Shown here: piece by piece, positions 259-1,448 of the stretch | Position numbering within the stretch: the first letter of the stretch is position 1 | Layout: each line of letters opens with the position of its first letter | Assembly: GCA_016784965.1 (NCBI GenBank) | Contig: JADHTQ010000024.1 | Span: 1-54,745 of the forward strand | Direction: 5' to 3' | DNA length: 54,745 nucleotides | DNA from: Bacteriovoracaceae bacterium | Lineage (GTDB): Bacteria; Bdellovibrionota; Bacteriovoracia; Bacteriovoracales; Bacteriovoracaceae | The notes under the pieces: model-generated | Seen by the model: the letters and a program-made list of their open reading frames with translations, nothing else | Database searches by the model: none | What the model was told of the DNA's origin: nothing | Made by a program: the position numbers and the translations under genes

Positions 259-316
259 AAACGGCGACGGCAACCGAAACAGAAACGGTTGCTGTTGCTG
301 TTTCTGTTTCAGTTGC
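259..316. terminator. Bidirectional terminator between flagellin and dnaA-like gene
   Basis: Two overlapping hairpins share one segment. For the + strand transcript, 259-275 pairs with 287-303 over 17 positions (three as G-U), with an upstream A-run and a U-rich tract after it. For the - strand transcript, 270-286 pairs with 300-316 over 17 bp with one wobble, followed by a T-rich tract around 250-262. The stop codon of the minus-strand dnaA-like gene (309-311) lies in the right arm. Confidence 0.7.
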
Positions 317-1448
317 TAGATAGAATATTCTGTATTGTTTCAGTTATTGAGTTATCAACACTATTTAATTTTTTAATCTTCTCGAGAGCGTATAATACTG
401 ATGTGTGATCTTTAGAAAAGATGGAGGCAATCTTTGTTGGTCTGATGTGCAAACAATGATGCAAAATGTACATGCACATATGTCTTGGTATCGCTATTTT
501 TTTAAGTCTTGAATTTGATAGCAAAGACTCTACACTTACTTTATAATGATCGGCCACTTGACTTAAAGTGTTCTGAATTGAACCTTTGTCCAAAGGAGTT
601 GCTCCAACAATATTTAAAGCACTCTTGGCCTGATTTAAAGTAATAGAGGTCCCCTTTTTAAAAGTATCCAAACTTTTAATCTTTAAAATCGCACTTTCTA
701 GTTCGTGAAGGTTACTAGAATACCTAGTGGCCATTAAGTCAGTTATTGAGGGGGCTGCCACAATAGCGCTTTCACAAAACCTCTGATCAATAATTTTTTT
801 ACAGACAAGCTTATCGACCATATTCATTTGTACAACTAAGCCAGATGATAGACGTGAGCTAAATCTTGCCACCAGGCCCTTAAGATCCCTTGGTAAAGTA
901 CAACCGGTACAGATAATTTGTCCCTTTAAATGTTGGAACCGGCTAAATATCAAACAAAAATCAGATTGAAAATCTTGGGAATTAAAAACCTCTTGGATAT
1001 CATCAATAAAAAGTCCATCTACGTTATCTGTATAGTCATAAATAAACTCTGCAAACCTATTTTGACTAATGTAGAGTTTATAGTTTTCAAGTAGCTCCTT
1101 GCCTGACATAAATTTTAGGCGATATTTTTTGTTGTGATGTAATATTTTTTCTGCAATGGCATTTAACAGATGTGTCTTGCCAGTTCCTGAAGCCCCACAA
1201 AGGTATATAAAGGGATAGTCTACGCCTGGAGCTTCAACTACTTTATCGATGATAGAAAGAGTATGCTGGTGTGCTTCTGAAGTAAAAAATGTTTTAAAAT
1301 TCATCCCAGGATTTTTTAGTCCAAAGTTAATTGGATTTACTTTCTTTTTTTTGGAGTTTGTGGATCTATTTCTTGTTTGTTTTATGGAAATAATATTGTC
1401 GGCCACTGAACTAAATTGCAATAATTCCATTTGTTGTGCATTACTCAT
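309..1448 (-). CDS. DnaA-like replication initiator lacking domain I
   Basis: 379 residues from the ATG at 1448, preceded by GAGAG; a longer frame to 1514 has no better start. After a short basic N-terminus (about 50 residues, SKKKK) comes the AAA+ core: Walker A GASGTGKT at 85-92, Walker B LFIDDIQ at 146-152, and the box VII arginine finger R199. The sensor II motif, NVRELEG in E. coli, reads NLHELES, so the sensor Arg is His248. Domain IV is complete with the DnaA-box signature KDHTSV (346-351, usually RDHT[TS]V). The ~90-residue domain I that recruits DnaB is missing. Known family: DnaA initiates replication and also regulates transcription. I infer a divergent paralogue rather than the main initiator, but the window cannot show whether a second dnaA exists. 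Confidence 0.8.
   Translation of the reverse strand: MSNAQQMELLQFSSVADNIISIKQTRNRSTNSKKKKVNPINFGLKNPGMNFKTFFTSEAHQHTLSIIDKVVEAPGVDYPFIYLCGASGTGKTHLLNAIAEKILHHNKKYRLKFMSGKELLENYKLYISQNRFAEFIYDYTDNVDGLFIDDIQEVFNSQDFQSDFCLIFSRFQHLKGQIICTGCTLPRDLKGLVARFSSRLSSGLVVQMNMVDKLVCKKIIDQRFCESAIVAAPSITDLMATRYSSNLHELESAILKIKSLDTFKKGTSITLNQAKSALNIVGATPLDKGSIQNTLSQVADHYKVSVESLLSNSRLKKIAIPRHMCMYILHHCLHIRPTKIASIFSKDHTSVLYALEKIKKLNSVDNSITETIQNILSSN

Follow-up and report, generated by a model that had tools for sequence, protein, structure and literature searches.

The locus described here raises the question of what a DnaA-like protein without domain I does in a genome that also carries a canonical initiator. 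The gene lies at 309..1448 on the minus strand of the window (the whole stretch of DNA analysed, 54,745 nucleotides, which is the entire contig C68 and sets the extent to which the neighbourhood is seen); the plus strand over this interval is crowded with stops. Read from the ATG at 1446-1448, with a GAGAG a few bases 5' of it, it encodes 379 residues, and the open reading frame extends over 1514-309 from a TTG (401 residues). Pfam finds an AAA+ domain (Bac_DnaA, PF00308, 91.7 bits) at residues 49-206 (831..1304) and a helix-turn-helix domain IV (Bac_DnaA_C, PF08299, 65.1 bits) at residues 295-358 (375..566), and no DnaA_N (PF11638), a domain present in the long DnaA of the same genome. Walker A (GASGTGKT, residues 85-92, 1173..1196), the Walker B pair Asp149-Asp150 (999..1004) and the box VII/arginine-finger pair Arg195 and Arg199 (852..866; R281 and R285 in Escherichia coli) are all present, while alignment with short and long DnaAs places His248 (705..707, in NLHELES) at the sensor II position, Arg334 in E. 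coli; all these features are on the minus strand. The initial annotation, which had described a DnaA-like protein without domain I, with the AAA+ motifs, arginine finger and domain IV kept and the sensor II Arg replaced by His, was thus borne out.

The intact 379-residue frame and the score of 243.2 bits against the DnaA model TIGR00362 place the gene far beyond chance, although this score is below the equivalog cut-off of 343.9. The Hda model TIGR03420 gives 70.3 bits, below its cut-off of 194.8, and by its AAA+ scores the protein belongs with DnaA and not with Hda (243 versus 70 bits). The AlphaFold model has a mean pLDDT of 82 with low values over the first 40 residues, and was matched by DnaA chains over domains III-IV and by Hda chains over the AAA+ part.

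The search of the genome for a canonical dnaA, proposed in the initial annotation, was successful. This genome (G000, 4.59 Mb in 126 contigs) encodes on contig C116 a DnaA of 555 residues with domain I, flanked by rnpA-like and dnaN-like genes (neighbours named by eye), and the 679-base gap between dnaA and dnaN holds 15 exact matches to TTATNCACA, 14 of these being TTATCCACA. Close pairs of exact TTATCCACA boxes occur in this genome on C116 only, with seven of the eight at oriC. The remaining pair (C116:47957-47986) lies alone at about 49 kb from oriC and is possibly a titration or regulatory site. The window gene is therefore not at oriC, since the oriC boxes and dnaN adjoin the long dnaA, which is on a different contig. 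With a canonical dnaA-dnaN pair separated by such a cluster of perfect boxes elsewhere in the genome, the window gene is a paralogue. The GC content of its contig is 37%, against 32% for the oriC stretch. Most genomes used in this work are drafts, and the assembly that contains the window has 3.78% contamination. A third, weak DnaA match on contig C38 is in a frame that follows an apparent transposase gene and looks, by eye, like a helper of the IstB/DnaC type.

When 129 genomes from this family (Bdellovibrionota, members carrying the name Bacteriovoracaceae) were searched with a profile, 20 short DnaAs were retrieved, and a twenty-first, from G109, was confirmed on reading its open reading frame, giving 21 in 129 genomes spread over eight genera. 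A search across 368 genomes of the phylum again gave these copies as its best 21 rows, all within the family. A single-protein scan of the genome-contig collection found no relative, and an alignment scan of the same collection gave mostly matches of the canonical-DnaA kind. The phylogeny of both DnaAs, also called for initially, resolves the short proteins as one clade apart from the long ones (support 99/100, and 100% of 200 bootstrap trees), in a tree that included 42 of the 71 long proteins and, with the contig-end-truncated G067 copy left out, 20 of the 21 short ones, and in which several short branches are long. The 71 long DnaA-like proteins used for comparison were picked without a sequence pattern from fetched loci, with 12 of 80 loci of the genome-contig collection considered, and include truncated rows and second copies from family f3.

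Comparison of the two sets shows which parts of the initiator the short proteins have kept. The Walker A Lys and the Walker B Asp-Asp are present in 21 of 21. The sensor II Arg, found in 71/71 long proteins, is missing from 19 of the 21 short ones, where the position is Tyr in 15, His in three, Arg in two and Leu in one; His itself is a minor variant. In E. coli, Arg334 is described as necessary for ATPase activity, RIDA and DDAH, and dispensable for functional initiation complexes (PMC5742627). Given a canonical dnaA at oriC and an Arg in every long protein, the window gene is neither the only dnaA of its genome nor the bearer of a His shared by the main initiators of the clade. The arginine-finger position (Arg199) is Arg in 13 and Lys in eight short proteins, versus Arg in 71/71 long ones, and the R281 position of box VII is Arg in 11, Lys in nine and Asn in one. 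The sensor 1 Asp is found in three of 21 short against 69 of 71 long proteins; the H-motif residue is Ile or Val in 69/71 long proteins and in a minority of short ones; and the position of K243 is Lys or Arg in 68/71 long proteins, neither being among its common residues in the short set. The B-motif Arg is uninformative because the long DnaAs here mostly have Gly. The residues of initiation (sensor 1 Asp, H-motif, Lys243) are thus mostly lost, and the earlier view that the protein is not an initiator and is probably a regulator is well supported. The DNA contacts are kept (R399 in 20/21, R407 in 21/21 and H434 in 20/20 assessable), and the turn before R/K-D-H (usually GGRDH) is one residue shorter in 20/20 assessable short proteins and in 5/70 assessable long ones, so the binding site of the short DnaA could differ.

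In place of domain I the short DnaAs have a tail, with 41-89 residues before the AAA+ domain versus mostly 110-291 in the long proteins. This tail is otherwise unconserved and contains Q[LM]x[LF][LF] in 21/21 short DnaAs, at a position that shifts from 6 to 42. The pattern Q[LMI]x[LF][LF] occurs in the corresponding stretch of none of the 71 long DnaA-like proteins, two of which match a looser version. Most short proteins have QLDLL and four have QLELL, with QLDFL in G111 and QLALF in G109; the window protein has QMELL (residues 6-10, 1419..1433, minus strand), ending in Leu and not in Phe, and Q6, L9 and L10 are invariant across the first seven paralogues compared. When the tails of eight representatives were shuffled, the motif arose by chance in 0.1-2% of cases per tail, figures that serve as a guide only because the motif class was picked after seeing the tails. 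The alpha subunit of Pol III in the window organism carries QVSLF, presumably at its usual clamp-motif site. The motif of the short DnaAs sits where Hda has its clamp-binding motif, and it belongs to a known class: the clamp-binding consensus is given as QL[SD]LF, more generally QxxLF (PMC12309361, PMC9690074), and the N-terminal QLSLPL of Hda and QFKLPL of Caulobacter HdaA as required for clamp binding (PMC3836487). From the sequences, domain I, with its helicase and DiaA docking, has given way to a short tail bearing a motif of the clamp-binding type, and through this motif the short DnaA probably docks on the DnaN clamp.

The best explanation that the sequences offer is that the short DnaA would be an Hda analogue with a domain IV, arisen independently from DnaA. 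Hda/HdaA, the RIDA factor of Proteobacteria, likewise has a DnaA-like AAA+ domain, no domain I and an N-terminal motif of the clamp-binding type; in contrast to it, the short DnaA keeps domain IV and its DNA contacts, scores as a DnaA, forms a clade of its own and does not always keep the Arg finger. With the initiator it shares the AAA+ domain, the helix-turn-helix domain IV, the Walker motifs and R399/R407/H434, whereas it lacks domain I, is altered at sensor II, sensor 1, the H-motif and K243 and falls below the TIGR00362 cut-off. We give about an even chance to the short DnaA acting as a clamp-tethered, DNA-binding, non-initiating paralogue that restrains DnaA after passage of the fork, and its effect on initiation could equally well be negative as not. 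Slightly short of even is the fuller proposal of a DNA-binding Hda counterpart made from DnaA in Bacteriovoracaceae, in which a clamp-docking peptide would stand in for domain I and the protein, moving along with the clamp, would act as a replication-coupled brake behind the fork. The QMELL tail would dock on the DnaN clamp remaining on newly copied DNA, domain IV would allow the protein onto DnaA boxes behind the fork, and its AAA+ domain would use the box VII Arg to pair head-to-tail with ATP-DnaA, with one of two effects, an Hda-like stimulation of ATP hydrolysis or a capped filament, such that oriC and DnaA-regulated promoters would not be re-used straight after replication. A hydrolysis mechanism of the Hda type is doubtful, and the Lys found at the Hda-type finger in 8/21 weakens it for those paralogues.

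Most relatives lack both a short DnaA and a recognisable Hda. None of 59 relatives gave a match to the Hda model above the cut-off, which is strict and also missed the Caulobacter control; matches below it were to proteins of about 425-440 residues. Present in 21 of 129 genomes, the short DnaA is not a universal off-switch. The titles and abstract openings of the literature consulted describe no short DnaA with such a clamp motif. To our knowledge, little has been established outside Proteobacteria and Bacillus on how DnaA gets switched off after initiation. YabA of Bacillus, a brake linking DnaA to the clamp, has no AAA+ or helix-turn-helix domain and is unrelated to the short DnaA, the likeness being the DnaA-clamp link as a brake. 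HdaB of Caulobacter, a DnaA-related regulator acting on RIDA, reportedly resembles DnaA domain IV without an AAA+ domain, unlike the short DnaA, and is said, judging by a title, to stimulate initiation. The lineage of predatory bacteria couples its replication to the invasion of prey and to growth as a filament; if our reading is true, the short DnaA would give a direct handle on replication control there and would illustrate a route from DnaA to an Hda-like factor.

Alternatively, the short DnaA could be a sequence-specific transcription factor or DnaA-box blocker that uses domain IV to bind DnaA boxes, remains in a nucleotide-bound state and acts by repression or titration independently of the clamp, in agreement with the retention of domain IV and the Walker motifs and the loss of sensor II. 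This reading is close to that of the initial annotation. The motif in all 21 tails would then be left unexplained. The 330 bases around 20 short-gene starts are not enriched in DnaA boxes, with 13 sites at up to one mismatch versus 11.5 expected, and contain no exact box; the confinement of close exact pairs to C116, nearly all at oriC, also speaks against this possibility, which we regard as unlikely. The initial annotation had left the choice between transcription factor and replication regulator; since the clamp-class motif, missed at that stage, is found in every tail, a replisome-tethered, Hda-like regulator is favoured over a free transcription factor.

The neighbourhoods of the short dnaA genes, compared in 20 of the 21 loci for both synteny and box scans (G067 was left out), bear on another alternative. 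A divergent gene of the SIR2/CobB type (named by eye) is adjacent or one small open reading frame away in 11/20 loci from four genera; the copies of the window, g15 and G109 are not at this locus, the SIR2 match of the window genome being on contig C9. A RecQ-like helicase gene, recognised by eye from its helicase motif, is near the short dnaA in 8/20 loci. This would favour a role in which the clamp motif brings the protein to stalled forks or gaps, serving repair or restart and not the control of initiation; however, a RecQ-SIR2 block without short dnaA is found in two genomes lacking the short gene, so the link between RecQ and the short dnaA is not specific, and we hold this role to be somewhat less likely still than that of a free transcription factor. 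The block without short dnaA is consistent with loss or late insertion. In E. coli, the Walker A Lys of DnaA is a deacetylation target of CobB (PMC4971506), and by analogy a functional link between the short DnaA and SIR2/CobB may be entertained as a suggestion only. The adjacent flagellin gene pointed out in the initial annotation is indeed there, its C-terminus being in frame at 3-188 and the gene converging on the short dnaA at the contig edge, but it is not kept as a neighbour across the short dnaA loci. Between the two converging genes, at 249-315, an imperfect inverted CTGTTTC-rich repeat was seen by eye, perhaps a terminator.

That the short DnaA initiates replication of a second replicon or an integrated plasmid is very improbable. 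In favour of this reading, the protein is a DnaA that retains its DNA-binding domain and is encoded away from oriC, and its shorter turn leaves room for a different site, but its synteny across genera is chromosomal, its origin-opening residues are mostly lost and the window genome has no second cluster of canonical box pairs. In the two-contig genome G002, moreover, both the long and the short dnaA are on one contig of 3.44 Mb, with the short gene at 1.34 Mb. Phage and plasmid collections, searched for a mobile origin of the gene, yielded nothing beyond DnaA-like matches of about 30% identity; those with an annotation, among the matches listed, are named DnaA, and this origin was rejected.

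A decaying, functionless dnaA duplicate would agree with the faster evolution relative to the long DnaA, the patchy presence and the variable sensor II, yet the intact Walker residues and tail motif of all 21 copies, the same locus retained in four genera and a dN/dS of about 0.13-0.15 in three short pairs (G069/G065, G065/G072 and G006/G139) make it highly unlikely. The long dnaA genes of the same genome pairs show a dN/dS of about 0.04-0.08. Silent sites are saturated in several other short pairs; where measurable, the short DnaAs are under purifying selection.

Other DnaA relatives were observed in the phylum. Two divergent second DnaAs of family f7, of 482 and 518 residues (L217:1750-3198, minus strand, and L216:1433-2989, plus strand), carry QVSLPL and QIHMPL, respectively, in the linker before the AAA+ domain, like the clamp motif of Hda; the main DnaA alongside one of them (L219, 365 residues) has only about 33 residues before its AAA+ domain. 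As a kind separate from the short DnaAs, they suggest from their motifs that clamp-linked DnaA paralogues may have arisen more than once in the phylum. Several f3 genomes have two or more DnaA matches, including an additional full-length DnaA that sits on a long branch (L214:1174-2664, plus strand, and L215:1459-2907), with domain I confirmed by Pfam for L214 only. In G080, a protein of 488 residues (L182:1201-2667, plus strand) fuses a DnaA AAA+ domain (PF00308, 103 bits) to a DnaB C-terminal domain (PF03796, 78 bits) and has no domain IV, and in G088 the sole clear domain of a 176-residue protein (L183:1163-1693, minus strand) is DnaA domain IV (PF08299, 67.5 bits). Isolated DnaA AAA+ fragments also occur in addition to the main DnaA, with 283 residues in G065 (L180:1404-2255, minus strand) and 149 in G018 (L040:5108-5557, minus strand), the latter retaining NNIRELEG.
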